Assembly: GCF_003752415.1 (NCBI RefSeq)
Contig: NZ_RKHG01000001.1
Coordinates: 1,736,001 to 1,800,000 of the forward strand
Source: Luteococcus japonicus
Lineage (GTDB): Bacteria > Actinomycetota > Actinomycetes > Propionibacteriales > Propionibacteriaceae
Length of the DNA stretch: 64,000 nucleotides
Reading direction: 5' to 3'
Below, in pieces: positions 32,868 to 61,641 of the stretch (the first letter of the stretch is position 1; each line of letters opens with the position of its first letter). Below the pieces are notes generated by a model. It was not told the DNA's origin. It was given only the letters and a program-made list of their open reading frames with translations, and did no database searches. The position numbers were made by a program, and so were the translations under genes.

Positions 32868-32869
32868 CC

Positions 32870-34193: not shown

Positions 34194-34793
34194 ATGCAGA
34201 GGATCATCGTGGATCTGGGCGGCGTGCTGGTGCACGAGACGACGCAGGTGCGCGACGCCGCGAAGCTGTTGGGCGTGGCGCCGCACGAGATCACGCGTCG
34301 CTACTGGTCCGAGCGTGACGCCTGGGACCGGGGCGACGACGACCTCACCTACTGGGGTGCCGTGGCGCAGGGTGCTGGCATCACGATCGACGCGGCGATC
34401 GCCGACCATCTGGCTCGTCAGGACGCGAAGCTGTGGACCACGCTTCGCCCCACTGCGCTGGACCTGCTCGTCGATCTGGCGATGAGCCCGCACGAGGTGT
34501 GGGTGCTGAGCAATGCCGCCAGCTGCTTCGAGCGATCGATCGCCGAATCGGACTGGGGTGAGCTGGTCAACGGCTGGTTCGTCTCCGGAAAGCTCGGCAT
34601 GGCCAAGCCCGAGGCCGCGATCTATGAGCACGTCGAGCAGGCGCTGGGCTGCAGCCCTGACGAGCTGTGGTTCGTCGACGACAAGCCCCAGAACCTGGAG
34701 GTGCCACAAGGGCGCGGCTGGCACACCCACCTGTGGCAGGACGACGCCGACACCCGCTCGTGGCTGGTGGAGTCGGGCGCGCTGGAGCCGTGA
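34194..34793 (+). CDS. HAD-superfamily hydrolase, subfamily IA
   Basis: A 199-residue phosphatase-like protein. Motif I is RIIVDLGGVLVHE, where the second acidic residue of the usual D-x-D is Gly, as in some family members. Motif II is VWVLSNAASC, motif III is GKLGMAKPEAAIYEHV and motif IV is ELWFVDDKPQNLE. Missing the second Asp suggests it may not be a regular phosphatase; relatives include epoxide-hydrolase-like and alpha-glucose-1-phosphatase-like proteins. TAGGCT stands 6 bases before the ATG at 34194, consistent with a leaderless promoter. It is convergent with the pyrophosphorylase gene, leaving 9 bases between them. Confidence 0.82.
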   Translation: MQRIIVDLGGVLVHETTQVRDAAKLLGVAPHEITRRYWSERDAWDRGDDDLTYWGAVAQGAGITIDAAIADHLARQDAKLWTTLRPTALDLLVDLAMSPHEVWVLSNAASCFERSIAESDWGELVNGWFVSGKLGMAKPEAAIYEHVEQALGCSPDELWFVDDKPQNLEVPQGRGWHTHLWQDDADTRSWLVESGALEP

Positions 34794-34802
34794 TGCTGCC
34801 GC

Positions 34803-36170
34803 TCAGCCCAGTACGGTGCCATCCTCGATCATGCGCGGCTCGTCGGGGCTGACCTCCACATCGCCGACCACCTGGACGTCGCGGCCAAAGCCCACCTCGC
34901 CGTTGACACGCAGCGAGGTGGCCTTGCGCAGCCCCAGCGGATGCGGCACCAGCCGGGAGAAGTCCTGCACCAGCTTGTAGTGGCCGTCCAGCTCCACCCG
35001 AGGCGTCTCCGCCTGTGCCACCAGCAGCCCGTCCTCGTCGAGCTCGTAGAGGTCGCTGCGCAGCAGGAGCAGTTCATTGGTGGTCTTCACCGGCAGAAAA
35101 CGTTCACGTCCGACGCAGATGGCGGTGGCGCCCTCGAAGACCTCGATCGCGGCACCCATGGCGCTCTCCATCTGGAAAACCGGGGTGGAGTCGGGGTCGG
35201 TGGGATCGACGGTCTTCTGGTTGCGAATCAGCGGCAGGCCAAGCACCCCGTCGCGCTCGGACATGACGCGATGCAGCACCCGCAGGTCAAGCCACAGGTT
35301 GTTGGTGTGGAAGTACGGGTGATGGTCGGGGTCGGTGAAGAAGTGCATCTCGTGGGGCAGGGTCTGCGCCGTGTCGCGCAGGATCAGCTGACCGTCGCTG
35401 CGACGCGCCGCCAGATGACCGCCCTTGCGGTCGTTGACGGTGCGGCGGCACAACTCGGCGGCATAGGACGCCCCGGAGGCAGCGAACCAGCCGGCCATGG
35501 TGGCGTCGGGGCTGGCACCCAGGTTGTCGCCATTGGTGAGCAGCAGCCGTTCGTGGCCCAGGTCGATGAGCTGTTGCAGCAGCCCGCTGCCGTAGAGGGC
35601 GACGTAGACGTCGCCGTGACCGGGCGGGCACCACTCCAGCGACGGGTTGGAGGGCCATTCGACGGGCGTCAGGTCGTCGACGCGCAGCTTGGGTTCCTGG
35701 TTCTGCAAGAAGCCGAGCGGCAGCCCGTCGACGGCCAGTTCCGGGTAGCGGGCCAGGGCGGTGAGGGTGTCGTCGTGGGTGCGGAAGGAGTTCATGAACA
35801 TCAACGGCAGCCGCGCGCAGTGCTTGGCTCGGGCGGCGAGCACCTGCTGGACGATGATGTCCAGGAAGGTCTTGCCGTCACGCACCTCCAGCAGGTTCTT
35901 GGCCTTGTCCAGCCCCATCGATGTGCCCAGCCCGCCGTTGAGCTTGATCACGACGGTGCGGTCGAGCGCCTCGCGCGCCGCCTCGGGGTCGACGTCCAGA
36001 TCGGCCAGGTGCACCGGGCGGGGCATCGGCTCGATGGTCTCCTCGCGGATGAAACCGGCGGCCCCGGCCTCCAGCTGCGCGTACTGCGACTGGAAGGTGC
36101 GGATGGCCGCGGGCATCACGCCGGCCGCCTGCATCTTGGCGACGGCCTGCTCTAGTCCTGCTGCGCTCAT
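34803..36170 (-). CDS. UTP-(glucose/hexose)-1-phosphate uridylyltransferase, eukaryotic type
   Basis: A 455-residue nucleotidyltransferase of the eukaryote-like UGP family, which makes UDP-sugar from UTP and sugar 1-phosphate. The nucleotide loop is VIKLNGGLGTSMGLDKAK, followed by FMNSFRTHDDT, EWCPPGHGDVYVALYGSG and LLLTNGDNLGASPD, and the C-terminal left-handed helix region VNGEVGFGRDVQVVGDVEV. The ATG at 36170 (MSAAGLEQAVAKMQ) is chosen; the longer frame runs into galK. It follows galK by 46 bases on the same strand. In bifidobacteria related enzymes act on galactose 1-phosphate as well as glucose 1-phosphate, so here it may replace galT. That specificity is inferred. Confidence 0.9.
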   Translation of the reverse strand: MSAAGLEQAVAKMQAAGVMPAAIRTFQSQYAQLEAGAAGFIREETIEPMPRPVHLADLDVDPEAAREALDRTVVIKLNGGLGTSMGLDKAKNLLEVRDGKTFLDIIVQQVLAARAKHCARLPLMFMNSFRTHDDTLTALARYPELAVDGLPLGFLQNQEPKLRVDDLTPVEWPSNPSLEWCPPGHGDVYVALYGSGLLQQLIDLGHERLLLTNGDNLGASPDATMAGWFAASGASYAAELCRRTVNDRKGGHLAARRSDGQLILRDTAQTLPHEMHFFTDPDHHPYFHTNNLWLDLRVLHRVMSERDGVLGLPLIRNQKTVDPTDPDSTPVFQMESAMGAAIEVFEGATAICVGRERFLPVKTTNELLLLRSDLYELDEDGLLVAQAETPRVELDGHYKLVQDFSRLVPHPLGLRKATSLRVNGEVGFGRDVQVVGDVEVSPDEPRMIEDGTVLG

Positions 36171-36216
36171 GGTGGGACTCCTGCTGCTCTGGATCGGCTG
36201 CTCTGGATGGACTGGT

Positions 36217-37428
36217 TCAGGACAACCGCTGGCCGGGGCCGGCCGCGATCGCCAGGTGGAGCTGCGGTTCGGGCGTGCCGGCCTGCCGGGTGGCATCGAG
36301 CATGGCCTGGGCGATGCGTTCGGCATCGGCGTCGCGCACCAGGGCGATGATGCTGCCACCGAAGCCACCGCCGGTGATGCGGGCCCCCAGCGCTCCCCCC
36401 GCCAGGGCGGCATCCACCAGCACGTCGGTCTCGCGGACGCTGGTCTCGTAGTCGTCACGCAGTGAGGCGTGCGACGCGGTGAGCAGCTCGCCGGCTACCT
36501 CGAACTGGCCCTCGCGCAGGACGGCGACGAAGCCCTGCACGCGCCAGGTCTCGGTGAGAACGTGGCGCAGACGGCGGCGCAGCACGTCCTCGGGCATGCG
36601 GTCCAGCACGGAGTCGAGGTCGGCGGGGTCAGTGGCGTCGGCCACCTCGCGCAGGCTGGTGACGCCCAGGATCTGGGCGGCTTGGTCACAGTGGGCACGA
36701 CGGGCGCCGTACTGGCCGTCACCCAACGAGTGGGCCGCACGGCTGTCGGCCACCAGCAGGCTCATGCCCTGCGCGGCCAGGTCGAAGGAGACGTGCTCGA
36801 CGGTGTTGGCGGCGCAGTCCAGCAGCAGCGCGTGCCCCTCCTGGGTGCGCAGCGAGGCGGCCTGGTCCAGGCCCCCGGTGGGGGCATTCGCGACGAGGTT
36901 CTCTGCCTGTACGCACAGCGCCGCGAGCCGGGCGCGGTCCTCGGAGGTGGCGTCCATGGGCTGGCCGGCCAGATCGGCGAGCGCCAGCCCGACGGCGCAC
37001 TCGATGGCGGCCGACGAGGACAGCCCGGCACCGACCGGCACACAGGAGGCGACGGCGGCGTCGAAGCCGGGCACCTGGATGCCAGCCTCGCGCAGCGCCC
37101 AGGCCGGGCCACCGCAGTAGGCCACCCAGCCCTCCACCCGGCCGGGGGCGAGTTCGTCGAGGCTCCCCTGCCAGGGCCCGTCCGCCGCGAAGTCGGTGAC
37201 CATGCGAACCCGGCCGTCGTCGCGGGACGCCACGGCAACATAGGTACGGTGCGGCAGCGCGATGGGCAGACAGAAGCCGCCGTTGTAGTCGATGTGCTCA
37301 CCGATCACGTTGACCCGTCCGGGCGAGGCCCACACACCGGCGGGTTCGCTGCCGAAGGTCTGGGTGAAAAGCTCGGTGGCACGCGTGATGCCCTCATCGG
37401 TGCTCCAGGCGGCGTCCAGGTGGAACAT
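36217..37428 (-). CDS. galK: Galactokinase
   Basis: A 403-residue GHMP kinase that phosphorylates galactose at C1. The N-terminal galactokinase signature is SPGRVNVIGEHIDYNGGFCL, the ATP-binding GHMP motif is VPVGAGLSSSAAIECAV, and the C-terminal motif is GARITGGGFGGSIIAL. The catalytic aspartate lies in APTGGLDQAASL. It is the first gene of a two-gene unit with the UDP-sugar pyrophosphorylase. Upstream is a 200-base divergent region shared with the dead alpha-galactosidase gene, with an operator-like site. ATG at 37428 (MFHLDAAWSTDE) fits the family. Confidence 0.95.
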   Translation of the reverse strand: MFHLDAAWSTDEGITRATELFTQTFGSEPAGVWASPGRVNVIGEHIDYNGGFCLPIALPHRTYVAVASRDDGRVRMVTDFAADGPWQGSLDELAPGRVEGWVAYCGGPAWALREAGIQVPGFDAAVASCVPVGAGLSSSAAIECAVGLALADLAGQPMDATSEDRARLAALCVQAENLVANAPTGGLDQAASLRTQEGHALLLDCAANTVEHVSFDLAAQGMSLLVADSRAAHSLGDGQYGARRAHCDQAAQILGVTSLREVADATDPADLDSVLDRMPEDVLRRRLRHVLTETWRVQGFVAVLREGQFEVAGELLTASHASLRDDYETSVRETDVLVDAALAGGALGARITGGGFGGSIIALVRDADAERIAQAMLDATRQAGTPEPQLHLAIAAGPGQRLS

Positions 37429-37600
37429 GTCATCTCCAGTGATGGTGGTGGCGCACCCAGTGCGGGCGCGGCCGGGTTCCCGTGTTTCGATTCAAGCAGG
37501 CGGTCGGCAGGCTGGCCACACCAACCCCGGTGCAGCGGCCAGGTCGGGGCCCTCCCCCCCCTCTGGCCCTGTGCCTGCCCCGCGTCTAGACTACGACCTA

Positions 37601-37621
37601 TTAGTTTCGCCGCAACAGTAA
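37601..37621. promoter_or_regulatory. Operator-like imperfect palindrome in the galK / alpha-galactosidase divergent region
   Basis: TTAGTTTCGC and CGCAACAGTAA form an imperfect inverted repeat with 7 of 10 positions paired. The TTAGTTT half resembles sites bound by ROK-family repressors in Actinobacteria, and a ROK regulator gene lies 10 kb away at 47449. It lies 8 bases before the ATG of the alpha-galactosidase pseudogene. The match is by eye, so this is only a candidate site. Confidence 0.35.
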
Positions 37622-37628
37622 GCATCCA

Positions 37629-39772
37629 ATGGAGGATGCCGTGACTGTGACCACCCAGATCCTGCTGCAAGCACCCCAGACCTGCCTCGTGCTCGAATCC
37701 CCCGACGGTGGACTTCCGGGAGTGCTCCACTGGGGCGCCCCGCTCGGCGAGATGGACTCCGCCGCCGTCACCCAGCTCAGCACCGCGCACTCCCACGCCG
37801 GTATCCACAATGGCCTACCCGGCGAGGGTTACCGCCTGGCTGTGCTGCCCGAGCAGTGAAATGGCTGGTACGGCCACCCCGGCCTGTCGGGCTCCCGCCA
37901 CGGCGCCGCCTGGGCGCCCCGTTTCACCGTCACCAGCGTGACCGTTGATGGCTCCGCCGTCACCGGATTCCACAGCGGCGGCCCCGCGACCACCATCTGG
38001 ACCGCCAGCGATGAGCAGACCGGACTCGAACTGGAACTGACCATCGAGCTCACCGCCCAGAGCCTGGTGCGCACCCGCGCCGCCCTCACCAATACCGGCG
38101 AGGACGGCTATCAGCTCGAGCAGCTGCTGCTGGCCCTGCCCGTGCCGGAACGAGCCACAGAGATCCTCGACTTCGCCGGCCGCTGGGGCAAGGAGCGCGT
38201 GCCGTAGCGCACCCCTCTGGGCGTCGGAACCCACTGGCGCGAGGGCCGCCACGGCCGCACCGGCGCCGATTCGGCCTTCGTGCTGCACCTGGGCGAACAG
38301 GGCTTCGACTTCGGCTCACGCGAGATCTGGAGCGTGCACACCGCATGGAGCGGCAACCACGTCCACTACGCCGAACGCACGTTGACCGGAGACCAGGTGA
38401 TCGGTGGCGGCGAGCTGCTGCTGCCCGGAGAGGTGGTGCTGGCCAATGGCCAGAGCTACACGAGCCCATGGCTGGTCTTCGGCCACGGCACCGGTCTGGA
38501 CTCGATTGCCCACGCCCACCACGACTTCCTGCGGGCCACCCATCCCGTCGACGCCGAGCGCCCGGTCACGTTGAACGTGTGGGAGGCCGTCTACTTCGAC
38601 CACGACGCCGACCGCCTGCTGGATCTGGCCCGTCGCGCCGCAGACCTAGGCATCGAGCGCTATGTGCTGGACGACGGCTGGTTCGGCGCCCGTCGCGATG
38701 ACCGTGCGGGCCTGGGCGACTGGACGGTGAGCCCTGACGCGTGGCCAGGGGGCCTGCACCCACTGGTGGACGAGGTGACTCGCCTCGGGATGCAGTTCGG
38801 CCTGTGGTTCGAGCCCGAGATGGTGAACCCTGATTCCGATCTGGCCCGCGAGCATCCCGATTGGGTCCTCCAGGTGCCCGGACGCATGCCGCTGGAGGCG
38901 CGTCACCAGTGGGTGCTGAACCTGGGGATCCCCGAGGCCTACACCCATGTGCGCGACCAGATGATGGCGCTGCTCGAGGAGTACGAGATCGGCTACATCA
39001 AGTGGGACCACAACCGCGATCTGCTGGATCCCGGCACGCATCCCGACGGCCGGCCCGGGGTCCGCGAGCAGACTCTGGCCTTCTACCGACTGGTGGACGA
39101 ACTGAAGGCCGCCCACCCCGGACTGGAGATCGAGTCGTGCAGCTCGGGCGGTGCGCGCATCGATCTGGAGGTGATGCAGCACTGCGATCGCGTCTGGGTG
39201 AGCGACAACATCGATCCCACGGATCGTCAGCAGATGACGCGCTGAACCACCCAGCTACTGCCGCCGGAGATGCTGGGATCGCACATCGCGTCGGGCGCCT
39301 CGCACACCACGGGCCGACACCACGACATTGCCTACCCGCCGCGACGGCCGTCTTCGGCCATCTGGGGGTGGAGTGGGACCTGGCGAAGGCCAGCGACGAG
39401 GAGATCGCCCAGCTGAAGGCGTGGATCGCTTGGTACAAGCAGATCCGGGCGCTGCTCAATCGCGGACGCCTGGTGCGCGTGGACCCGCCGCAGCCCGGCG
39501 CCTTCCTGCACGGCGTCGTGGGTGAGGACCGTGCCATCTTCGCGTTGACGCTGCTGGAGCTGCCCGGAACGTGGAGCATCGGCAGCATCCAGTTGCCCGG
39601 CCTGGCCCCGGATGCCACCTGGCGGATGAGCCACCTCGATCTCACCGCCGGCGGCCGCGAGTTGCCCGCGACGGTGGAGCTGACGGGACGGGCACTGGCG
39701 ACGGCCGGGGTGCGAGCGCCCGTGATCCTGCCCGAGCGCACCCGGATCCTGGTGCTGGACAAGCTCTCCTGA
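37629..39772 (+). pseudogene. Alpha-galactosidase (GH36) gene inactivated by three nonsense codons and a frameshift
   Basis: The frame encodes a GH36 alpha-galactosidase of about 710 residues, broken at four points. TGA at 37857 interrupts LAVLPEQ*NGWYGHPGLSG. TAG at 38205 interrupts GKERVP*RTPLGVGTHWREG, where relatives have Gln. TGA at 39243 interrupts RQQMTR*TTQLLPPE, where relatives have Trp. Near 39330 one base is lost, so the rest (AATAVFGHLGVEWDLAK) lies in another frame. The reading frame is otherwise preserved and the active-site region is intact (EIGYIKWDHNRDLLDP with the nucleophile Asp; the acid/base region is around RVWVSDNIDP), so inactivation is recent. It is divergent from galK and convergent with lacZ. 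Confidence 0.88.
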
Positions 39773-39782
39773 CCACCGCAAC

Positions 39783-39841
39783 CACTACGGGCTCGCACGG
39801 CCCCACCCATGATCCAAGTGGGGCCGTGCGAGCCCGTAGTG
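39783..39841. terminator. Perfect 24-bp inverted repeat, probable bidirectional terminator
   Basis: Arms 39783-39806 and 39818-39841 are perfect complements of 24 bp around an 11-base loop (CCATGATCCAA). The stem is GC-rich (CACTACGGGCTCGCACGG...). It lies between the convergent alpha-galactosidase pseudogene and lacZ, starting 11 bases after the former and ending 29 bases from the latter. There is no T-run. Termination or transcript protection in both directions is likely. Confidence 0.7.
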
Positions 39842-39870
39842 CCTGACGCCAGCCTCACAGGCCGGGCACT

Positions 39871-43942
<4,072 letters not shown>

Positions 43943-43946
<4 letters not shown>

Positions 43947-44854
43947 CGCGCCTCCTCCCTCATGACGATTCTCAGATAGATCAAGATGAATACGCTGGAC
44001 ATCCCCAACATGATCGTGGCCAAGGCGGATCCGAACCCGATTCGCTGTGCCTCCCCCACGATGTTGCGGGTGACCTCCGTGGCCAGTAGCTCGAGGCCGT
44101 TACGACCTCGGTTGATCACCCAGACCAGGTCGAACGCGCGCAGGGAATCGATGAAAGTGATCACCAGCACCACCACGTTGATGGGAAACATCACGGGAAA
44201 GGTGACGTGGAAGAAGGTCTTGATCTCAGACGCCCCGTCGATGCCGGCCGCCTCCTTCAGCGCTGGATCAACACCCTTCAAACCAGCAAGATAGAGGAGC
44301 ATGACGTAACCCACATGTCGCCAGCTGGTGGCAATCAGCGCAGCCCACAGATTATACCGGGAATCGCCGTACCAGTCGATGGAAGTCCCCAATACTGCGT
44401 TAATGAGTCCTTGATCCCGACTGAACATGAGCTGCCAGACGAAGCCAATTAGAGCCATCGACAGCACCACTGGTAGGTACAGCGAAGTCTGGTAGAGCTT
44501 CGTGCCACTGGCTTCACGGTCGATCAGCACGGCGCAAAGCAACCCGATCGGAGTCGCGACAAAGAACATCGCTGCCAGCCAGATCAGGTTGTGCTGCACG
44601 GCAGGCCAGAAGGCGGGATAGATCGTGACGGCCTCTTCATACCAGCGGAGCCCGACTGGTTCTGCCTCCGACAGCGGCCCGAAACCATCCCAGTCGAAAA
44701 AGGACAGCACCACCGAAGCGATAGCGGGTAGCCAGACCAGTGAGGCCGCCACCAGCGTCGGGATCCCCATCATCAGAGAGACGGTCACTTTGTCGCGTGT
44801 CGAGAGTCGGCCTCCCCCACGCCCCCGCTGGCGGGGCTCAGCAACGGCACTCAT
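43943..44854 (-). CDS. Sugar ABC transporter permease (MalF-like)
   Basis: A 303-residue permease forming the second half of the CUT1 transport channel. It has six helices (VTVSLMMGIPTLVAASLVW, LIWLAAMFFVATPIGLLCAV and others) and the EAA loop LKEAAGIDGASEIKTFFHVTF. The final helices include ALATIMLGMSSVFILIYL. The start ATG overlaps the stop of the binding-protein gene (ATGA), and its own stop overlaps the next permease, so all three are translationally coupled. Confidence 0.92.
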
Positions 44855-46176
44855 GATCCGAAGATCGACTTTCGCTGAGACTCCACGTTGGCCAGCATCG
44901 ACGTGATGTCATTGGGATTCTTGATGAAGCTCTGGATCGCCGGGCCCATCACGGTCGAGGCGAAGTCTGGGCGGGAGTCACGGTCCAGGAACTGGGCCAC
45001 ATCGGTGGCGCCCTTCATGACCTCGAGCATGCGCTTCTGTAGAGAGGTGTACTTGGTCGGATCGGCGTTCTCGTTGACTGCGATCGCCGACGGATCGGCG
45101 GCCACATTGGCCATCTGGGCATCAGCACTGCCCAGATAGGACAGGAAGGCCTTTGCGCCCTTCTCGTTCTTGGGGCGCTTGCTCAGCATGAAACCATCGG
45201 TCGGCGCCTCGATGGCACCGGAACCGATCGTGCTGTCCACCTCGGGGAACACGAAGAAGTCCAAGTCGTCCTGTTCAGCGCCGGTCTTGAACTGCTGGGC
45301 CATGAAGGTGCCCAAGTAGTACATACCGGACTTCCCCTGCTGCAGACTCTGCGCCGCCTCCTGCCAGGTGCGGCCCAGCGCATCCTTCTGGTGATAGGGA
45401 AGCAGTCCCTTCCACAGGTCGAATACCTTGGCCACCTTGGCCTGCGACCAATCCTCCTTGCCAGACATCAGGTCGACATGGAACTGGTAGCCGTTTGCGC
45501 GAAGGTTAAGGATGTCAAACATGCCCATCGCTTCCCAACCGTCCTTGTCGGCGAAGGCCATCGGGGTCAGACCGTCCTTCTGCATCTTCTTGGACAGCTC
45601 AGTGAACTGATCAATGGTCTTGGGGATCTCGTAACCGTGCTTCTTCCAGACGCTCTTTCGGTACTGGACAACCCACGGGTAGTAGGTGGCGGGCATGACG
45701 ATCTGCTTGCCATCAGCCGTGGAACAAGCGTTCTTGAGCGAGGCGGGAATCCCCTTGGTCTCACCGAAAACGTCAGAGATGTCGCCAACCATGCCCTTCT
45801 CGGCAAAGAACCGAGCACGGTATCCGGCAAACCAGGCGAAGACATCGTCCGGAGCGCCCTGCAGATAGTTGTTGATGTTCTCCTGGAAGGTGGTGTGTGC
45901 CACCGTGTTCATCTTGATCTTGTAGTCGGGGTGCGCTTTCTCAAAACCGGCAACATTGGCCTTGATCGCCTTGAGGGGAGCTTCATCTGCCTGATTGTTA
46001 CCGAAGGACACCTCCCCGGAGGCCGAACCACCACCCCCTCCACTACCGCCACAACCAACCAAGCCAACAGCGCCCACAGAGAGCGCTCCAGCCAGCACTG
46101 CACGACGGGAGACGCCCGAAATGGGAGCGGTGCGGAAACGCGCGAGGTACTCGAGTTCAGATTGGGGACGAGACAT
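44851..46176 (-). CDS. Sugar ABC transporter substrate-binding lipoprotein
   Basis: A 441-residue binding protein of the SBP family 1. The N-terminus has a twin-arginine-like SRRAVLAGALS and a lipobox ending GLVGC (Cys42), then a Gly/Ser linker, so it is a lipid-anchored surface protein. The mature part resembles maltose/lactose-type binding proteins (GDISDVFGETKGIP, MPATYYPWVVQYRKSVWKKH, GTFMAQQFK). Being first in the operon with lacZ, its ligand is probably lactose or another beta-galactoside; this is inferred from context. Operator-like repeats lie just upstream at 46214-46258. Confidence 0.92.
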   Translation of the reverse strand: MSRPQSELEYLARFRTAPISGVSRRAVLAGALSVGAVGLVGCGGSGGGGGSASGEVSFGNNQADEAPLKAIKANVAGFEKAHPDYKIKMNTVAHTTFQENINNYLQGAPDDVFAWFAGYRARFFAEKGMVGDISDVFGETKGIPASLKNACSTADGKQIVMPATYYPWVVQYRKSVWKKHGYEIPKTIDQFTELSKKMQKDGLTPMAFADKDGWEAMGMFDILNLRANGYQFHVDLMSGKEDWSQAKVAKVFDLWKGLLPYHQKDALGRTWQEAAQSLQQGKSGMYYLGTFMAQQFKTGAEQDDLDFFVFPEVDSTIGSGAIEAPTDGFMLSKRPKNEKGAKAFLSYLGSADAQMANVAADPSAIAVNENADPTKYTSLQKRMLEVMKGATDVAQFLDRDSRPDFASTVMGPAIQSFIKNPNDITSMLANVESQRKSIFGS

Positions 46177-46213
46177 GGGTGACCTACTTCCTCCGTTGGA
46201 ATAACCGGCGGTC

Positions 46214-46258
46214 TGTTACCGGTAAAAGCATGATACACGGTAACTGTTATCGGTAACA
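46214..46258. promoter_or_regulatory. Two LacI-type operator palindromes upstream of the sugar ABC/lacZ operon
   Basis: TGTTACCGGTAAAA (46214-46227) and TGTTATCGGTAACA (46245-46258) are both one base from the perfect palindrome TGTTACCGGTAACA, with the central CG expected for LacI-family proteins. Their centres are 31 bp apart, about three helical turns. They start 38 bases upstream of the binding-protein start codon, and the LacI-family gene lies directly upstream. Repression of the operon by that regulator is the likely purpose. Confidence 0.75.
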
Positions 46259-46287
46259 AGAGGGAGACACCCTAGTTTTTCTGTCCC

Positions 46288-47304
46288 TCAGCGCGCCGGT
46301 GGCGCGCTCGATCTGCGGGGGACGAGCTCACCGGCGAAACAGTAGCCCTCAAGTTCGGGTGCGCCGCCGAGCCCCGTCCCCGCAAGAAGAGAGTTCACCG
46401 CCCGGCGACCCATCCCCACGAAGTCGATCGCCACCGTGGTCAATGGCGGAGCGTAGAAGGCTGCATCCTTGAGCCCGTCAAAGCCGGTGATGCTGACGTG
46501 ACCCGGGACGCTAATGCCACTCTTGTGCAACCGAGCGATGGCGCCCAGGGCGATCTGGTCGCTCGCCGCGACGATGGCGGTGGGCATCTGGTCTAGGGGA
46601 AGGTGGTCCACCGCCGCGTAACCGTTGACGGCCCCCCATGGGCCATGGGTGCGACCGCAGTCGACCAAGCCCAGATCTTCAACGCAGGTACCGTAAGCCG
46701 TCTCACGATTCCACGCTGAGGGCCACCCGCGCGGACCCCCCAGATAGAAAAATCTCTGATGCCCCAGTTCCGCCAGATGCCTCACGGCCTTTGCTATCGG
46801 ATGCTCCAGCGACGCCGGATGCCCCCGAGGGATCCTTGGCTCTGCCTCGATCAGCCACGGGGTCTGCAAGGAACTAAAATCCATCGCCTCGAGCACGAAG
46901 TCTGGAGGCGAAAGCACCACCACACCCGCCAGCGAAGCGCGGTTCATCATGTGTAGGGCCTGCTTGATTGACGCAGGGTCATCCATGTCGGCCCGGATCG
47001 TCTCCAAGATGTGTCCGCTCGCACGGGCCGCCTCTCCAGCACCTGCTAGAACTCTCTGCGGGGCCCAGTCATCAACATCGAAAACCAACGCTCCGATGCG
47101 GCGCGGCTGTTGTGTGGCCAGCTCACTCGCGGTGTCGTTGAACCGGTAACCAAGCTCATCAATAGCCTGCCGCACCCGTTCTTGATTCTCAGGCCTCAGC
47201 TTCTCGCCGCGGAGATACCGAGCGACCGTCTGGTGACTGACTCCCGCTCTCTCGGCCACCGTCCAGATGGTCGCTCCTTGCCGCCGATGCCCCTGCCGCG
47301 CCAT
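46288..47304 (-). CDS. LacI-family transcriptional regulator of the lac operon
   Basis: A 338-residue repressor. The DNA-binding head is TIWTVAERAGVSHQTVARYL followed by the hinge region ending FNDTASELATQQPRRIGAL. The sugar-binding core is periplasmic-binding-protein-like (GHILETIRADMDDP, AIVAASDQIALGAIARLHK, HVSITGFDGLKDAAF). I chose the ATG at 47304 (MARQGHRRQGATIW), preceded by AGGAG; an in-frame ATG lies 13 codons upstream. It is transcribed toward the ABC operon, with the two palindromes in between, so it very likely represses that operon and is relieved by a galactoside. Confidence 0.92.
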   Translation of the reverse strand: MARQGHRRQGATIWTVAERAGVSHQTVARYLRGEKLRPENQERVRQAIDELGYRFNDTASELATQQPRRIGALVFDVDDWAPQRVLAGAGEAARASGHILETIRADMDDPASIKQALHMMNRASLAGVVVLSPPDFVLEAMDFSSLQTPWLIEAEPRIPRGHPASLEHPIAKAVRHLAELGHQRFFYLGGPRGWPSAWNRETAYGTCVEDLGLVDCGRTHGPWGAVNGYAAVDHLPLDQMPTAIVAASDQIALGAIARLHKSGISVPGHVSITGFDGLKDAAFYAPPLTTVAIDFVGMGRRAVNSLLAGTGLGGAPELEGYCFAGELVPRRSSAPPAR

Positions 47305-47448
47305 GGGAGCAACTCCTGTCTGGATCTGGACAATGCGACGCACACCGCGCCACCCGCACAGTGTACGTGGGCCTCGTCAACGAACCAGATTCGGATGCCA
47401 CGTCAATCAAGCACCCACACAAGATCACCGCGAAGTAGGGTCTGGGCC

Positions 47449-48552
47449 GTGAACGACTTCGACGGCCTGGACTCCACCTCGAAGCGCGTGGCCCTGGCGG
47501 TGCTCCGCCAAGGCCCCGTCTCCCGGGCCGATCTTGGGCGCATGCTGGGGCTCTCGGCCCCCAGCCTCACCCGGTTGACCAAGCCGCTGGTGGCCCGACG
47601 GTTGCTGGTGGAGGGCGAGCCGGTGGCGCAGAACTCCACCGGCCGCCCGTCGGTACCACTGGACGTCAACGCGTCACGGGCCCACGTCGTCGGCGCCAAG
47701 TTCGTCACCGACGCCCTGTTCGCCGTGGTCACCGATCTCAAGGGCACGGTGGTGGCCAGCCACAAGGTGCAGCAGGAGTTCCCCTCCCCCGAATCCGCCG
47801 TGGCTACGCTGGAAGAGTTGGTGCTCGGCTGGGCCGCTCCCTGGCACCCGGTGGGGCTGGGCGTGAGCCTGGGCGCCAATGTGGACGCCGACGGCAACAT
47901 CAGCCGGGTCTCCTTCCTGGGCTGGCCAGACTCTCCCTTCCGGGATCTGCTGGCCGGGGCGACCAGGCTGCCGTGCGTGGTCGCCAATGACGTGCATGCC
48001 TTCGCGCTGGCCGAACACTGGTTCGGTTTCGGACGGGGCTGCACTGACTTCGCGGTGGCCACGCTGGGTGCCGGTGTCGGTGTCGCGCTGGTCTGCAATG
48101 ACGAGCTGGTGCTGGGTCAGGCCGGGCGCGCGGGCCGGGTGGGCGACGTGACGCTCGACGACGGGCGTCGGCTGCGTGATGTGGTCGTCACCAGCGTGGT
48201 GAGCCAGCACGTCGAAGCGGCGCTGGGCAGTGCGCTGCCCACGCACGCCAGCAGTGAGGACCTGGCGCGTTTCTCCCATGATCCCCGGGTGCAGGTGGTG
48301 CTCGACGACGTGGCCCGGGCCATGGGGCAGCTGGTCGGGCAGGTGTGCCTGTACACCGCACCGGAGAAGGTACTGATCTCAGGCGAGGACGCGGGTTTGC
48401 TGCGCAACCATCAGACCGCCCTGCACGACGGGATCCGACGCTATGTCCAGCTGCGCCCCGAGCAGATCGGCATCGAGAGCCTGGGCTTCGACGAATGGGC
48501 CCGCGGATCGGCCGCCATGGCGATCCGCGCCCACATGACTCCGCGCTCATAA
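47449..48552 (+). CDS. ROK-family transcriptional regulator
   Basis: A 367-residue protein with an N-terminal winged helix (SKRVALAVLRQGPVSRADLG, LSAPSLTRLTKPLVARRLLV) and a C-terminal ROK sugar-kinase-like domain (LGVSLGANVDADGNI, VVANDVHAFALAEHWFGFG, VATLGAGVGVALVCNDELV). The ROK zinc motif (C-x-C-G-x2-G-C) is absent: the region after GQAGRAGRVGDVTL has no cysteines. It is therefore a regulator rather than an active kinase. The GTG at 47449 follows TAGGGT closely, suggesting a leaderless mRNA. It is divergent from the LacI gene. A ROK-like site lies upstream of galK, so it may control the galK/alpha-galactosidase region. Confidence 0.88.
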   Translation: MNDFDGLDSTSKRVALAVLRQGPVSRADLGRMLGLSAPSLTRLTKPLVARRLLVEGEPVAQNSTGRPSVPLDVNASRAHVVGAKFVTDALFAVVTDLKGTVVASHKVQQEFPSPESAVATLEELVLGWAAPWHPVGLGVSLGANVDADGNISRVSFLGWPDSPFRDLLAGATRLPCVVANDVHAFALAEHWFGFGRGCTDFAVATLGAGVGVALVCNDELVLGQAGRAGRVGDVTLDDGRRLRDVVVTSVVSQHVEAALGSALPTHASSEDLARFSHDPRVQVVLDDVARAMGQLVGQVCLYTAPEKVLISGEDAGLLRNHQTALHDGIRRYVQLRPEQIGIESLGFDEWARGSAAMAIRAHMTPRS

Positions 48553-48649
48553 TCCTCCGACACATCTGACCCCAAGGCGAAACAGAGTGCCGGCGAAGCG
48601 CGGTGAGTCCCGCCACATCGTGCAGCGGGACCCACCGCGTGGTGCGGGA

Positions 48650-48880
48650 TCAGTGCGCCTTCTGCACCGTGATGACCCAGCCGAAGTCGGGTGCCTTGAC
48701 GAACTCGGTCACGGGATAACCGGACTCCGCGGCCCACTCGGGGATCGACTCGGTGGCCTGGGTGCAGTCGAAGTTGATGACCAGCTCGTCGCCGACGGGC
48801 AGATCGGCCATCGCCTTCTTGGCCTCGATCAGCCGGAAGGGGCAGACCTCGCCGACGGTTTCCAGAACGTGCTTTGCCAT
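48650..48880 (-). CDS. TusA/SirA-like sulfur carrier protein
   Basis: A 76-residue protein of the TusA/YedF/SirA family. The sulfur-carrying cysteine is in ETVGEVCPFRLIEAKKAM (Cys13). The typical C-P-x-P reads C-P-F-R, so the second proline is lost. The rest keeps the two-layer fold (LVINFDCTQATESIPEWA, GWVITVQKAH). It lies 37 bases after the YedE-type membrane gene, the same pair as TsuA/TsuB thiosulfate uptake, in which the small protein accepts sulfur brought in by the channel. The ATG at 48880 follows GAAGGGGAAA. Confidence 0.82.
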   Translation of the reverse strand: MAKHVLETVGEVCPFRLIEAKKAMADLPVGDELVINFDCTQATESIPEWAAESGYPVTEFVKAPDFGWVITVQKAH

Positions 48881-48917
48881 GGTGTTTCCCCTTCTGTGGT
48901 GGTGATTGTGTGGTGGT

Positions 48918-49760
48918 TCAGGCCGGGATGGCCACGGCGACGGGACGTCGCGAGGGGGCGGACTTGCGGCCCACAGGAAGGAAGATCTTGGCGCCGATGC
49001 CCAGCACCAGCATCACGCCCCAGTCGACACGCTCGGTGTTGCCGGTCACCAGGTAGCTGCTGAGATTGGCCGACGCAGTGGTGATGCCCAGAGCGGACTT
49101 GCGGCCGGAGGCGAAGCTCAGCGGGTAGGCGGCGCTCGCGATCAGGCCGATGATGACGCCCGCGACGAAGGGACGCCAGCGCTTCTCGAAGAGCACGTGC
49201 GCCAGGCCGGTCCTCTGGGGCGGGAGCGTGTCCATCGGTGCGGTGGAGCGCTTCAGCTCCCGACGCACCAGCACCACAGTGAGGGCCATCAGCAGTGCCA
49301 CCAGCACCCAGCTGGAGATGCCCAGTGCGTCGTGGATGGGGTGACGGGGGCGGTGACACCACGCACGGCATCGTTCATGGGCTTCAGGGCGCCGTACTTG
49401 ATCATGGCCGCGGCGGCGGCATAGCCGACCAGTGCGATCCATGAGCCGACCAGGCTCTCGCCGGCGCGGTACCAGGTGCCGGTGGCGCAGCCGCCCGCCG
49501 CGACGATGGAGACACCGAAGATGAGCGATCCCACGATGACGGCCAGCCACGGCAGCTCCTCGAAGCTGCGCGTGATTGCGCCGGTGCTCTGCAGCGCGGC
49601 GACGCCGACGGCCTGGACTCCGATGGTGATCAGGAAGGCCACCATCCAACGAGCCTTGTGGGCGATACACACGTCTCGGAGGGCGCCGGTGACGCAGAAG
49701 CGGCCGCGCCGCAGAACGAAGCCGAAGAGCAGACAGGGCAAGAGTCCGGTGATGATCATG
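48918..49760 (-). pseudogene. YeeE/YedE (thiosulfate importer-like) gene with a single frameshift
   Basis: The gene starts at the ATG 49760 (MIITGLLPCLLFGFVLRRGR) with GGAAAA upstream. It keeps the conserved cysteine blocks RGRFCVTGALRDVC and AAGGCATGTWYRAGE used for thiosulfate conduction in TsuA. Near 49335 the frame breaks at VRGVTAPVTP; the correct continuation, HDALGISSWVLVALLMALTV, lies one base away. The break is a run of C that is one base short. The second half continues through RTGLAHVLFEKRWRPFVAGV to IGAKIFLPVGRKSAPSRR at 48918. With one restored base it would be an intact 280-residue protein. It may be a true mutation, a phase-variable tract or a sequencing error. Confidence 0.8.
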
Positions 49761-50216
49761 AGTTTTCCTTCTGGGGTGGTGAATGCCCGCGTATCCCGGG
49801 GGTGTGACGCAGTGACCCATCGACGATGACCGAGGGCCAGGGGGTGAGTTGGAATGCCCGAATGGGCAGGGGCGTACCCCACGAGGAGGGGTAGGCGCTA
49901 CGCGTAAGCCCTCACGCAGAGGTGAGGCAGGGGCCAACCAAACCCTTGTCCTTGGACGGACGCGGGGGCTGGAGACGGCGCAGGAGGTCCGTGACAGGCG
50001 CAGCGTTCGGGGCAACGACACAGCAGGTGGCATATGCACGTCGGCGTACCGATGACGGCATGCCGAGTGGTGGCGGTGTCACGCTGGATGACCACGACGC
50101 TTTTCCTTCCCTGCTGAGGCTTTCCTGACCTTGTTCGTGGGCAACCCCACCCCACCACCCCGCAGGATGAGGCACCGTCTCTCCTGCTGGGGCAGGATGG
50201 ACGGGAAGGGAGCCGC
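49761..50216. other. Long divergent region with hairpins, leader of the YedE/TusA operon
   Basis: 456 bases between the YedE gene (minus) and the LacI/GH32 pseudogene (plus). On the minus strand, towards yedE, it contains several short stems: GCCTCAC-N6-GTGAGG near 49910-49930, TACCCC-N7-GGGGTA near 49878-49897, and GCCC-ATTC-GGGC near 49857-49869. A possible cysteine-containing leader peptide lies upstream of these. This layout suits attenuation of sulfur genes. I could not match it to a named riboswitch. The LacI promoter must lie at the right end. Confidence 0.5.
49912..50061 (-). CDS. Possible leader peptide upstream of YedE/TusA genes
   Basis: An ATG at 50061 opens 49 codons (MPSSVRRRAYATCCVVAPN ... 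GLVGPCLTSA) on the same strand as yedE, ending about 150 bases before it. It has adjacent Cys-Cys codons early, then a final Cys. Cysteine-bearing upstream ORFs are known to attenuate sulfur genes in Actinobacteria. A second frame over the same bases is even richer in cysteine (CICHLLCRCPERCAC) but has no start codon. There is no good ribosome site, so confidence is limited. Confidence 0.35.
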   Translation of the reverse strand: MPSSVRRRAYATCCVVAPNAAPVTDLLRRLQPPRPSKDKGLVGPCLTSA

Positions 50217-51328
50217 ATGAATCCGCAACGTGAACCACGCCTGGCCGAGGTGGCCGAGAGGGCCGGGGTCTCGGTGACCACCGTCTCGCGCGTGCTGAAC
50301 AATCGCGGCTACCTCAGCCAGCAGACCAAGGACAAGGTGGCGCAGGCCATCGACGAGCTGAACTACCACCCCAACCAGGTGGCGCGATCGCTGCTGGGGC
50401 ACCGCACCAACACCATCGGGCTGGTGCTGCCGACGGTCGCACTCCCCTTCTACGGCGAGGTGGCCGTCGAGGTGGAGAATGCCCTGGCCGAGCACCAGTG
50501 CCAGCTGCTGTTGTGCAACAGCTTCGGCCGCTCCGACCGGGAACGGGCGGTGCTCGACATGCTGGTGGCCAATCGCGTCGACGGCATCATCTCGGGCGCC
50601 CACAACGATCCCGTGGACGACTACTCACGGTTGCGTCAACCGGTGGTCACAATTGACCGTGAGCTGGCACCCCACATTCCCAATGTGCGTGCCCAGAACG
50701 AGACCGGCGGCAGGCTCGCCACCGAGCTGCTGCTGAAGCGTGGCGCGCGCCGCCCCGCACTGGTCACCTCACGCTCGCACTCCCGCAATCTCCGTGAGCG
50801 TGGCTATCGCGACGTGTTGGCCGCCGCCGGGATCGATCCGACCGTGGTGACGGTGGACTTCCACCTGCCCGAGGCCGAACGGGCTCGCACCATGGAGGCC
50901 AAGCTGGACGCGCTGACGCCGCAGGCCGATGCCGTCTTCGCCACCGACGACCTGCTGGCCGCCGGGGTGCTCGACTGGACGCGTCGGCGTGGCCTGGAGG
51001 TGCCCGGCCAGTTCAAGGTGGTGGGCTTCGACGGCACGCTGGCTGCCACGTCGGCTTCCGGATTGCCGACGGGGTGCTCACTGTCGATCGTTCCACCACG
51101 CGTTATCCGCACGGGGATCGACGCAGCGTCACCCTGCCCGAAGCCAGCGCCGACGGCCTGCTGCGCCTGCAGCTGGCGCGCGACCGCTCGGTGGACGAGC
51201 TCTTCCTGGCCGACGGTCTGGTCAGTTTCACGATGCGCAGCTATCTGGCGCCGGATGCGGCGGGGATCACCGTGGAGCAGACGGGCTCACTGCGCGTGGT
51301 CTCCTGTCGTGTGCTGTCGCTGGACTGA
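50217..51328 (+). pseudogene. LacI-family regulator fused by deletion to the 3' end of a GH32 (sucrase/levanase) gene
   Basis: The first 280 codons are a good LacI regulator: RLAEVAERAGVSVTTVSRVL, YHPNQVARSLLGHRTNTIGL, ADAVFATDDLLAAGVLDW and FKVVGFDGTLAA. The last 70 or so residues of the family are missing. From about 51055, in another frame, the sequence instead encodes RIADGVLTVDRSTTRYPHG and RDRSVDELFLADGLVSFTMR, closing SLRVVSCRVLSLD at the stop 51326-51328. That matches the C-terminal beta-sandwich of GH32 enzymes. A deletion therefore removed the end of lacI, everything between, and most of the GH32 gene. The LacI frame itself runs on to 51380 with unrelated residues. Confidence 0.78.
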
Positions 51329-52050
51329 GGTCCTCCCCACCAGGCGCGGGTGGTCTCCGTCGGACCGTCGAGTTCGGTGAAACCGGCGTCGACCACCTGC
51401 ACCCGGCCGGGATTGCTGGCCCACCGCTCGGCGTCGACCACCTCGACGCGGAGCCGGAAGTAATCGGCCTGCCAGGCCTGACGGGTGGGTTCGTCCATCG
51501 CCTCCCATGCCAGCTGGGCGGCGTGCGCGCACTGGGCGGCCGCCTTGCCCGTGGTCATCGTGATGTGAGGGCTGACACCGACCGTGACCACCGCCCCCTC
51601 GGTGCGACTGGGGTGAAGATCGGGCAGTTCGGTGCCCTCCACCTGCAGCTTCTTCAGCACCGGGCCGAGCGGACGCACCGGGGCGGGGACGAAGGCGCGG
51701 GCGCCCGCCACACCTTCATCGCCGGGCTCACCGTCGGGGGCGCCACCACCCTGTTCGACGGTGACTCCGGGAACGGTCTGCACCTCGGCCCAGCGGGTCT
51801 GGCCGCGAGCTCGGCGCACCAGCTTGCGGATCCTTCCGTCGCGCCAGAAGTCGACGGCCTGGCGCCACTCCCCCTCGAGCGCCTCGGGGGAACTGATCAG
51901 CGCCACCGCGGCCCGGGCGACGGCCTCGCAGGTGTCCACATGGCTGGCTGGCCGCTTCTTGTCATAACGGATGGCAAACTGCATCGCCCACGGAATCTCG
52001 TCGTCCAGGTGACCGTCGATGGGTGAGGCGTCGGGCTGCGGGCTGTCCAT
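51241..52050 (-). CDS. Peptidyl-tRNA hydrolase, PTH2-type domain protein
   Basis: A frame of 269 residues with a PTH2-like domain near the C-terminus: VTVGVSPHITMTTGKAAAQC continuing AHAAQLAWEAMDEPTR, and RVQVVDAGFTELDGPT. The G-K-x-A-A-Q-x-x-H-A block is the PTH2 active-site region. The N-terminal part (HLDDEIPWAMQFAIRYDKKR, ALISSPEALEGEWRQAVDFW) matches the longer actinobacterial form. The enzyme would release peptides from peptidyl-tRNA. The C-terminus after GPTETTRAWWG runs antisense into the GH32 remnant and looks foreign, so the original stop may have been lost with the deletion there. ATG at 52050; divergent from the nucleotidase gene. Confidence 0.78.
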   Translation of the reverse strand: MDSPQPDASPIDGHLDDEIPWAMQFAIRYDKKRPASHVDTCEAVARAAVALISSPEALEGEWRQAVDFWRDGRIRKLVRRARGQTRWAEVQTVPGVTVEQGGGAPDGEPGDEGVAGARAFVPAPVRPLGPVLKKLQVEGTELPDLHPSRTEGAVVTVGVSPHITMTTGKAAAQCAHAAQLAWEAMDEPTRQAWQADYFRLRVEVVDAERWASNPGRVQVVDAGFTELDGPTETTRAWWGGPQSSDSTRQETTRSEPVCSTVIPAASGAR

Positions 52051-58640: not shown

Positions 58641-58947
58641 GGTTCCGCCGCCATGGGGGCGCCCCCAGCACACCCGTCGGGTGACTTGTTCGTTCAAATG
58701 GGTGGGCTCCTCCGCGCGTCTTCCCGCCAGTGGCGCAAAGGGGCTCCGAAGGGTTTGGCCTGACCGTCATGCCGTGTACTGTGGAGACAGTTGTTGAAGT
58801 TCTAGTACCTCGTATGACAAGCGGTTTTCGGCCTCGACCCCCATCCAGGGCGTCCGTGCCAAAACTGTTTTCTGGACGGTTCACAAGGCATCACAGCTAG
58901 GAGCACCCGAAAGCCGGAGTGCTCAGCACCCAGAAAGCAGAAATGAC
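58641..58947. other. Intergenic region with the cold-shock gene leader
   Basis: About 300 bases without a gene, between the DUF2079 remnant and csp. TTGGCC and TACTGT near 58755-58785 could be -35/-10 boxes, giving a leader of about 150 bases, typical for cold-shock genes. GAGCAC-N12-GTGCTC near 58900-58925 can form a hairpin just before the csp start. The promoter call is by eye. Confidence 0.4.
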
Positions 58948-59154
58948 ATGACTACTGGCATCGTGAAGTGGTTCAACGCCGAAAAGGGCTTCGGCTTCAT
59001 CGCCCCCGAGGACGGCTCCGCCGACGTGTTCGCGCACTTCAGCGCCATCCAGGGCTCGGGCTTCAAGAGCCTCAACGAGAACGACCGCGTGGAGTTCGAG
59101 GTTGTCCAGGGCCCCAAGGGCGCCCAGGCCGCCGACATCCACGTGATCAGCTGA
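58948..59154 (+). CDS. Cold-shock protein (CspA family)
   Basis: A 68-residue single-domain RNA chaperone that melts RNA structure at low temperature and often in normal growth. The RNA-binding motifs are KGFGFI (RNP1) and VFAHF (RNP2), and the start [17 protein letters not shown] is the family norm. A leader of about 150 bases precedes it and a strong hairpin terminator follows, so it is transcribed alone. Its ribosome site is weak (CAGAAAGCAGAA), possibly exposed only when the leader refolds. Confidence 0.95.
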
Positions 59155-59169
59155 CACCAGGTCTTCAAG

Positions 59170-59203
59170 AACCGCCCGTCCTGCTCCGGCAGGGCGGGCG
59201 GTT
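59170..59203 (+). terminator. Terminator hairpin after the cold-shock gene
   Basis: A 15-bp GC-rich stem (59170-59184 with 59189-59203, one G-T pair) and a four-base TCCG loop, 16 bases after the csp stop. The following bases are CTGCGTCT, only partly T-rich. Placement and stem strength support a terminator. Confidence 0.7.
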
Positions 59204-59323
59204 CTGCGTCTCCGGACGGAGGCCCCCTGCCCGTCGGTCAGTCCTACGGCACCCTCCGCACACAGGGCGAGTGACCCCGCCCCTGACGGGGCCGGGTCCC
59301 TCGCCGCACCACTGGCCCGTGCC

Positions 59324-60311
59324 TCAGAACTGGCCTGCCTCCACCAAGCGGGTCCGCTCGTCGCGCAGCGCGACGTCCTTGGGGTGGAAGCGAAGACGAA
59401 CCAGAAGGCGGCGTTCATCAGGTAGGGGATGGTCACGAAGTGGAGCAGCGTGCGCTGCAGGCCGAAGCTCACCGACATCCAGCCGGTGGCCAGGCTCATC
59501 AGGGCCGTCAGGCAGCCCTGCACCAGGCTGAACAGGACGGCGAAACCGGTGGCGGACAGCTGCGTCGGGACCACGCTGGCCACCATCGGCAGCACACACC
59601 CGGAGAATCCGATCGAGAAGACCAGGCCCAGCATGAAGGCCACCACGTAGTACTGGCCCAGGCTGAACTCCACCGGGAAGGCGATGAAGGTCATCGCGGC
59701 AAAGGCGACACAGTAGATCTGGAAGAGGTCGATGCGGCCCTTGTCCCCGAAGCGACGCTGGAAGAAGTCGCCCAGGAAGCCGCCGATGAAGGAGGACAGG
59801 AACTGCCCCAGCTGGAGGATGGTGCACAGGTAGGCGGCGTTCTTGATGCCCCAGCCCAGGTCCTTGGCCCAGAACTTGGCCCGGAAGCCGAACATCACCA
59901 GCGAGGTGAGCATGGGGAGTATCGCCAGCCATTCGGGTTGTCACCGAACTGCCCCAGCGCCGGGGTGAGCAGCATGCCCAGGCCGGCCGAGATGCCGCGC
60001 ACCGTACCGAAGGCCTTGCCACGCTCGGACTTGGCGTAGAGCGAGTTGATCAGGCCCAGGGCCGCGTCATTGACCGCGAAGGCGTTCATGATCTGCGGGA
60101 AGAAGACCTTGGAGACACCGCCCTCGGAGTTGTCGATGGACATCGGCGCTCCCAGGGCGACCGTCGCCCCCATCCGGCCCTTGGGCTTCACGAACTCCGC
60201 GTCCTCATTGACGGGGACGTAGGTGGGGCCGTAGCCGGGAACATTGGCGACGAGGTCCTCCCGTCCGGGGACCTGGGTGATGGACGAATTGTCCGGGTGT
60301 TGCGTGGTCAA
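59324..60311 (-). pseudogene. Broken MFS transporter gene
   Basis: The frame opens at a TTG (60311) with LTTQHPDNSSITQVPG, then IDNSEGGVSKVFFPQIMNAF and VNDAALGLINSL. It passes directly to YAKSERGKAFGTVRGISAGL; in related transporters about 60 residues with two helices lie between these, so there is an internal deletion. Near 59935 one frameshift leads to LAILPMLTSLVMFGFRAKFW and the remaining helices (LGQFLSSFIGGFLGDFFQRR, ALMSLATGWMSVSFG). Near 59395 a second shift precedes the end, KDVALRDERTRLVEAGQF. Deletion plus two shifts make it nonfunctional. Confidence 0.75.
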
Positions 60312-60465
60312 CTGAGGCCTTTCATGTGCTTCATCGAGCAGTGAGCCGTGATGCGTCAACTGTGGAGCCAGCACCGATGCGTCGTGACCCTGTTGCCGGA
60401 TCTTGCCGTCGGTCACCCACCGGGCAGTGCCCGGTGATGTCAGTGCCATGGGGCAGGATCGGGGC

Positions 60466-61641
60466 ATGACCAATTTCGACGCACTCACCCCAGAAGCCCT
60501 GCGTGCCCGTGGATCCATGAAGTGGAACCGTCGCGGCCCGGAGGTCCTGCCCATGTGGGTGGCGGAGATGGACTACCCGCTGGCCGATCCGGTCGCCGCC
60601 GCCATCGACGAGGTGGTGGCGCGCCAGGGCTTCGGCTACGCGGAGGTGGATGACCGGGTCCCCCGTGCCTTCGCGGACTTCGCGGCCCGTCGGCTGGGCA
60701 TGACGGTCAACCCGGGGTGGACCACCGTCGTGCCGCATGTCCTGGCAGGCATCGAGATCGCCGTCGAGGTATTCACGCCGAAGGATGCCGGCGTGGTGGT
60801 CACCACCCCCGCCTACATGCACTTCCTGGTCATCCCCGGGCTGACCGGGCGCGAGGCCGTCGAGGTGCCGCTCCTGGAGACCAGGGGCGCGGCCAGCGTC
60901 GACGAGCAGTGGCACCTGGACCTGGAGGGCATCGAGCGCGCCTTCGCCAATGGCGCCCGCTCGCTGATCCTGTGCCAGCCCTACAACCCGGTCGGCAAGG
61001 TCTTTTCCCGTGAGGAACTGGCCGAGCTGGCCCGGATCGTCGCCAGGTACGACGGTTGGGTGATCAGCGACGAGATCCATGCCCCGCTGACCCTGCCCGC
61101 CATCCGGCACCTGGCCTACTCGGAGGTGGACGAGACGGCCGCCAGCCACTGCGTCACCATCACCAGCGCGTCGAAGAGCTTCTCCATGCCCGGCCTGCCC
61201 TGTGCCACGGTGAGCCTGCACACCCAGGCGGGCCACGATCGCTTCGTCACCAATGCCCATCCGGACCACCTCTACGGCGCCACGACGCTGGGGATCGAGG
61301 CCAATGTGGCGGCCTTCACCGGGGGCGACGAATGGTTGGACGGCGCCCTGGCCAAGATCGCCCAGAACGTGGCGCGGACCAAGGCCTTCGTCGACGCGGA
61401 ACTGCCCGACGTGCGCTATGTGCCCGGTGATGCCACCTACTTCGCCTGGCTGGACCTGCGCGAGGCGGGCCTGGGCGATGACCCGGCCGCCTGGGTCTTG
61501 GATAAGGGCAAGCTGTGGATGAATCCCGGAGGAGACTTCGGGGCCAATGGCAAGGGATTCTGCCGCCTCAACCTGGCCACCACCAGCGCCATCCTGGACG
61601 ACGGTCTGGGCCGGTTGAAGGCCGCGCTGGACGCCCGCTGA
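60466..61641 (+). CDS. PLP-dependent C-S lyase / aminotransferase, PatB/MalY type
   Basis: A 391-residue fold-type I PLP enzyme of the cystathionine beta-lyase PatB/MalY group. The N-terminal block is MKWNRRGPEVLPMWVAEMDY, characteristic of the group. The PLP region has LCQPYNPVGKVF and WVISDEIHAPLT, and the PLP lysine is in SASKSFSMPGLPCA. The C-terminus FCRLNLATTSAILDDGL holds the arginine for the carboxylate. It should split cystathionine or other cysteine S-conjugates to homocysteine or thiols, pyruvate and ammonia; PatB and MalY also have regulatory roles in other bacteria. ATG at 60466. Confidence 0.9.
   Translation: MTNFDALTPEALRARGSMKWNRRGPEVLPMWVAEMDYPLADPVAAAIDEVVARQGFGYAEVDDRVPRAFADFAARRLGMTVNPGWTTVVPHVLAGIEIAVEVFTPKDAGVVVTTPAYMHFLVIPGLTGREAVEVPLLETRGAASVDEQWHLDLEGIERAFANGARSLILCQPYNPVGKVFSREELAELARIVARYDGWVISDEIHAPLTLPAIRHLAYSEVDETAASHCVTITSASKSFSMPGLPCATVSLHTQAGHDRFVTNAHPDHLYGATTLGIEANVAAFTGGDEWLDGALAKIAQNVARTKAFVDAELPDVRYVPGDATYFAWLDLREAGLGDDPAAWVLDKGKLWMNPGGDFGANGKGFCRLNLATTSAILDDGLGRLKAALDAR

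Follow-up and report, generated by a model that had tools for sequence, protein, structure and literature searches.

Structure of the locus

The window analysed here, a stretch of 64,000 nucleotides from the Luteococcus japonicus genome, carries two gene fragments fused out of frame, a LacI-family regulator (scrR') and the C-terminal end of a GH32 enzyme ('scrB), which abut a Pth2-like gene read from the opposite strand. The locus is a pseudogene scar, real but ordinary, left by a sucrose operon, and what it adds is small: a scrB remnant that appears to be inverted and a neighbouring gene that has lost its stop codon. Its features are the following:

50217..51040, plus strand: scrR', residues 1 to ~275 of a LacI-family regulator (Pfam LacI and Peripla_BP; 62-71% identity to the regulators of scr clusters)
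51039..51044, no strand: junction 1 between scrR and scrB, with a change of frame (bases 51039-51043 uncertain, cautiously to 51071; placed by alignments with relatives)
51044..51328, plus strand: 'scrB, the last ~94 codons of a sucrose-6-phosphate hydrolase with its natural stop (PF08244; 44-53% identity to the GH32 proteins of scr clusters)
51329..51336, no strand: junction 2 between the end of scrB and the 3' end of the Pth2-like gene (former stop position 51334-51336, now GGA)
51241..52050, minus strand: Pth2-like gene with an extended frame (open reading frame of 269 aa; PF01981, 24.4 bits against a cut-off of 23)
34794..51336: 16.5 kb of mostly sugar and sulfur genes between a HAD-hydrolase-like gene and the Pth2-like gene, with the scar as its right-hand edge

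Pfam profile searches established that the open reading frame at 50217-51380 opens as a LacI-family regulator, with the helix-turn-helix intact at residues 9-53 (PF00356, 76 bits). The sugar-binding and dimerisation core is incomplete, as the PF00532 match (74.8 bits) stops at 225 of 281 profile positions and the PF13377 match at 117 of 167, and the core lacks some 60 residues at its end. This missing 3' end of scrR was not found within the window, where the matches at 46.3-46.5 kb belong to a second LacI gene. From ~51044 onward, in another frame and up to a stop codon at 51326-51328, the sequence instead matches PF08244 (Glyco_hydro_32C; 30.7 bits, cut-off 21.9, E 3.8e-7), the C-terminal domain of GH32 enzymes, with partial coverage (positions 66-156 of 158). 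The C-terminal end of 'scrB aligns with the GH32 proteins of relatives, and the tail scores up to 73 bits against their genes. The catalytic N-terminal domain PF00251 is absent from 'scrB; the only two places in the genome that match it lie elsewhere and are 34-36% identical to scrB. Given the profile scores and the scores against relatives for both parts, neither half is due to chance.

In alignments with relatives, LacI homology is firm as far as ...VVGFDGT, whose T occupies 51036-51038, and GH32 homology begins at CHV (51044-51052), so that the best alignment would place junction 1 at 51039-51044, or cautiously within 51039-51071. Codon-position GC confirms a switch of coding frame at this junction: it is 0.73/0.44/0.87 for the LacI part and 0.72/0.50/0.82 for the GH32 part, each in its own frame, but 0.52/0.81/0.72 where the LacI frame is continued to 51380. 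Local alignments run wider, those of the LacI proteins of 10 relatives ending at 51056-51071 (6/10) or extending to 51116-51149 (L077, L079, L080 and L083), and those of the GH32 proteins beginning left of 51044 in 7 of 11 cases, furthest at 50819. These wide ends are read as low-scoring overrun, because the DNA that they cover clearly matches the other gene in the other frame. The first-pass annotation had described a LacI gene passing out of frame into a GH32 C-terminal domain at about 51055, a description that profiles, alignments and codon-position GC uphold, GH32 match of the tail included, with the breakpoint itself moved slightly to the left.

Short repeats at the junction had been proposed by that annotation as something to look for. 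The stretch 50900-51500 contains only short, imperfect repeats; a 22-bp similarity between lacI and GH32 sequence (50951/51058) does not coincide with the junction, and 34700-34900 contains no repeats. As no repeat of at least 9 bases is shared among 121-base stretches around junction 1, junction 2 and the left edge of the 16.5-kb island, no repeat-mediated mechanism is indicated.

A DNA search of the whole region against 57 genomes (own included) returned, beyond the window itself, short matches only, and no match spans the join of scrR' and 'scrB in the other genomes searched. The lack of a match across the join, together with the frame-shifted appearance of some neighbouring genes, could also be taken as a sign of an assembly or sequencing artefact that brought two places together. 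Such an artefact is very improbable, however, since a misjoin needs an intact source of scrR or scrB, neither of which was found in the genome, and the assembly is a single contig, 99.96% complete with 0.94% contamination.

Origin of both fragments in a sucrose PTS operon

Relatives identify the cluster from which the two halves came. Within a family set of 198 genomes (own included), an orthologous regulator (E <= 1e-60, 63-71% identical) is present in 9 of the 197 other genomes, and a class-level draw of 394 genomes (own included) yielded one further, weaker case at 47%. All of the regulator loci fetched carry a sucrose PTS gene alongside, and all except L077 a GH32 gene. Approached from the other half, the GH32 tail alone matched ten genes at 49-73 bits, spread over nine of the 198 genomes, with the next best reaching 27.8 bits; of these ten GH32 genes, eight have both scrA and the regulator next to them, that of L150 has scrA only, and that of L151 has neither. 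NCBIfam models name the neighbours: the GH32 gene of L079 matches sucrose-6-phosphate hydrolase (TIGR01322, 361 bits, cut-off 356) and the PTS gene of L029 sucrose PTS IIBC (TIGR01996, 578 bits, cut-off 559). Of the 25 loci from the search that gave the Buchananella and Micropruina regulators described below, gene order was read for L028 and L029, the other 23 (27-49% identity) being left out, and L029 and L085, with three proteins 100% identical, are evidently one genome and were counted once. The neighbours of the regulator and the matches of the tail thus assign both halves to one cluster type, the sucrose PTS operon scrR/scrA/scrB, and by its sequence matches the enzyme is better described as ScrB than as a levanase.

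The closest intact counterparts compared are the actinobacterial scrR-scrA-scrB clusters of Micropruina sp. SSC1 (CP059261.1; evidently genome G148 of the family set) and a Buchananella MAG (JAUMWR010000007.1), whose regulators are 62% and 64% identical to that of the window and whose GH32 tails are 48-53% identical. Compared with these, the window lacks scrA, the catalytic domain of scrB and the end of scrR, and its scrB tail lies in the opposite orientation. A Latilactobacillus curvatus plasmid (L155) also carries a regulator, 44% identical, beside genes for sucrose-6-phosphate hydrolase and a sucrose PTS, but the gene order of this lactic acid bacterial type (scrA / scrB-scrR) differs from that of the window, and its genes are intact as annotated. 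No relatives of scrR' were found among viral contigs, and every best place among 383 plasmid records falls below 60% identity.

The remainder of the operon was sought in the genome itself. PTS matches to scrA reach only 29-39% identity, the search brought up neither an scrA orthologue nor the scrB catalytic domain, and none of the candidate leftover reciprocal pieces (the scrB 5' end, scrA) is orthologous; within the window no scrA piece was detected (best E 0.41). The residual sucrose-transport genes that the first-pass annotation had suggested seeking therefore did not turn up as orthologues in either genome or window. Its view that the two halves are the ends of one lost sucrose operon holds in so far as they belong to the same cluster type and the rest was not found in the genome. 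The isolate is predicted to be without sucrose PTS uptake via the scr route; another sucrose or fructan route in the genome is possible.

Bacterial pseudogenes left by the loss of catabolic operons typically show truncated ends, out-of-frame fusion and missing operon genes. The locus shares these traits and differs in the apparently inverted piece and the stop codon lost by the neighbour. It is a clear record of the disappearance of a catabolic operon. Among titles and the opening lines of abstracts, a literature search found nothing on scr genes in connection with Propionibacterium and nothing on this locus, which leaves absence in print unproven.

Incomplete scr clusters also occur in the family, as judged from the stretches read: a regulator and PTS gene without GH32 (L077/L152, genome G159), PTS and GH32 genes without a regulator (L150, G108) and a GH32 gene alone (L151, G163 contig 47).

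Orientation of the fragments and a proposed history

The first-pass annotation attributed the scar to one deletion that removed the operon and left its two ends. The gene order of the relatives does not agree with this. In all 10 relative loci found with both genes (L078-L085, L028 and L154; in L078 the contig ends within the GH32 gene), scrR and the other two genes converge (scrR> <scrA <scrB), and L077, with regulator and PTS gene only, is likewise convergent. With that order, a plain deletion would leave scrR' joined to the 5' part of scrB in reverse orientation. The window has the 3' part of scrB on the same strand as the regulator, so that the two ends do not keep the order and orientation of the intact clusters; explaining this takes one inversion or more in addition to the loss.

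A single deletion would require an ancestor in which scrR and scrB shared a strand and scrB was last, adjoining the Pth2-like gene. It involves the fewest events and agrees with a GH32 tail that retains its natural stop right beside the next gene. It is nevertheless unlikely, in view of the 10 convergent loci and of the Pth2-like stop codon, which is gone too. In the one same-strand arrangement, a single distant locus (L155), scrB precedes the regulator; this is the wrong order, and a deletion there would not yield the scar. Two observations bear on how far the relatives can be relied upon: the tail is only 44-53% identical to theirs, which leaves room for a type of cluster in which scrR and scrB share a strand, and the incomplete clusters L077, L150 and L151 indicate that scr gene order can change. 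The comparisons covered one genome per species and showed no intermediate stage. No orthologous regulator was found in the single congener (G001, 79% complete), where the best match is 37% identical, and the ancestral order assigned to the L. japonicus lineage is presumably that of the other genera from which it is drawn.

The history judged probable from these comparisons is one of inversion and loss. The ancestral arrangement would have been scrR> <scrA <scrB; at least one inversion would have placed the 3' end of scrB behind scrR', and the losses would comprise scrA, the greater part of scrB and the final section of scrR. The event or events would have reached as far as the final sense codon of the Pth2-like gene and would have removed the stop codon that followed it. 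In one variant, an inversion with its ends in scrR and scrB yields the exact junction and the DNA behind it is then lost; in another, scrB alone is inverted and a deletion follows. The order of these events is likewise conjectural. More generally, a "deletion scar" described from one genome may conceal an inversion that becomes visible only through the gene order of relatives.

The Pth2-like gene and the adjoining interval

A distance of 8 bp separates the stop codon of the GH32 fragment from the last codon common to the Pth2-like gene, on the opposite strand, and its relatives. Such relatives were detected in 31 of the 197 further genomes of the family (E <= 1e-10). Of 15 relatives compared, eight (7/14 and the congener, L129) have their stop directly after this last common codon and the other seven have 2-17 additional residues. 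The window has GGA at the stop position, and the frame continues for 31 more codons antisense to the GH32 tail. Codon-position GC of this extension (0.58/0.74/0.74) is unlike that of nearby coding frames and fits a recent extension, as expected. Two of the three bases of the former stop codon agree between congener and window, and the change from TGA to GGA could have come about either through the rearrangement or through a point mutation. The protein is presumably made with its 31-residue tail, and since relatives end 0 to 17 residues past the same point, a longer tail may be tolerated. That the rearrangement itself supplied this new C-terminus, recruiting coding sequence from the antisense strand of the neighbouring pseudogene, is a tentative suggestion, somewhat short of an even chance.

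In the congener G001 (contig L129), a radical-SAM-like gene and a HAD-hydrolase-like gene are followed after 22 bp by the Pth2-like gene, which is read from the opposite strand. The window has the same genes at 32774-34123, 34194-34793 and 51331-52050, its HAD-like gene being paired with that of the congener by a DNA match, and 16.5 kb separate the latter two. With one congener compared, the absence of this stretch there may reflect either a gain in the window or a loss in the congener. In a genome of another genus (G127), the radical-SAM-like and Pth2-like genes are 5.6 kb apart, with a different set of genes in between. The names radical-SAM and HAD hydrolase, like beta-galactosidase and ABC transporter below, are ones that we assume from the appearance of the sequences, without a family match.

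The interval from the radical-SAM-like to the Pth2-like gene (34124-51336 in the window; L129, L117) holds differing gene sets of 0.6 kb, 5.6 kb and 17 kb, and is possibly a region of frequent gene turnover.

Fate of the truncated regulator and its operators

In LacI-family structures, the C-terminal end contributes to both subdomains of the core. The stretch missing from scrR' would thus include parts of both; the sensor domain, cut short, is not likely to fold, and the fragment is most likely dead. An annotation of this locus as a LacI regulator is accordingly not to be trusted.

The first-pass annotation had allowed that the truncated repressor may still bind its old operators. A candidate ScrR operator, chosen by eye from the stretches before the scrA and scrB genes of relatives, is the palindrome TGTCAATCGATTGACA, which recurs with variants mostly before scrA or scrB (L078-L085, L028, L151 and L154; one site in L154 lies before the regulator). 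Its degenerate form TGTYMAWCGWTKRACA, with <=2 mismatches, is present in 10 of 11 relative loci with a regulator and PTS gene, L077 being the exception. L151 has one copy and L150 has none, and the 13 control loci, 203 kb in all, are free of it. This contrast is not independent, as the pattern was derived from some of the same loci. In the L. japonicus genome the pattern has no site at 0 or 1 mismatch; at 2 mismatches it has 11, against 2 for a reversed control pattern. One of the 11 is in the window, at 10825, and the window has no copy of the strict form even with as many as 3 mismatches allowed. The sucrose genes and operators that would adjoin a ScrR-type regulator were not found with scrR'. 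With the candidate sites mostly before the lost scrA and scrB, and none at 0-1 mismatch in the genome, the proposal of continued binding to the old operators is not supported, and a surviving regulon is unlikely.

The open helix-turn-helix and ~275 codons might nonetheless allow a 387-residue hybrid to be made that works as an orphan repressor or as a dominant-negative partner of another LacI protein. We consider this highly implausible: ~111 frame-shifted codons replace the end of the core domain, the genome has 11 two-mismatch places and no closer candidate operator, and genes that the regulator would control were not found.

Neighbouring genes in the window

Further genes of the window are split over two frames. 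A GH36 alpha-galactosidase gene (Melibiase; 38280-39772, plus strand) has profile positions 1-270 in one open reading frame and 305-346 in another, the result of either a frameshift or a sequencing indel. A YeeE-type sulfur transporter gene (48918-49882, minus strand) that adjoins a TusA gene matches Sulf_transp over positions 1-128 and 125-237 of 310 in its two parts. A possible transporter gene at 58897-60554 (minus strand) was recognised by eye, one piece scoring 22.8 bits with MFS, below the cut-off of 33.4, and the other having no match. Together the three split genes are a hint either of gene decay or of indels introduced by the assembly. Finally, the stretch 39871-47000, with genes for a beta-galactosidase, an ABC sugar transporter (by eye) and a LacI regulator, has a GC content of 55-63%, compared with ~67-69% beside it, and was perhaps acquired separately.
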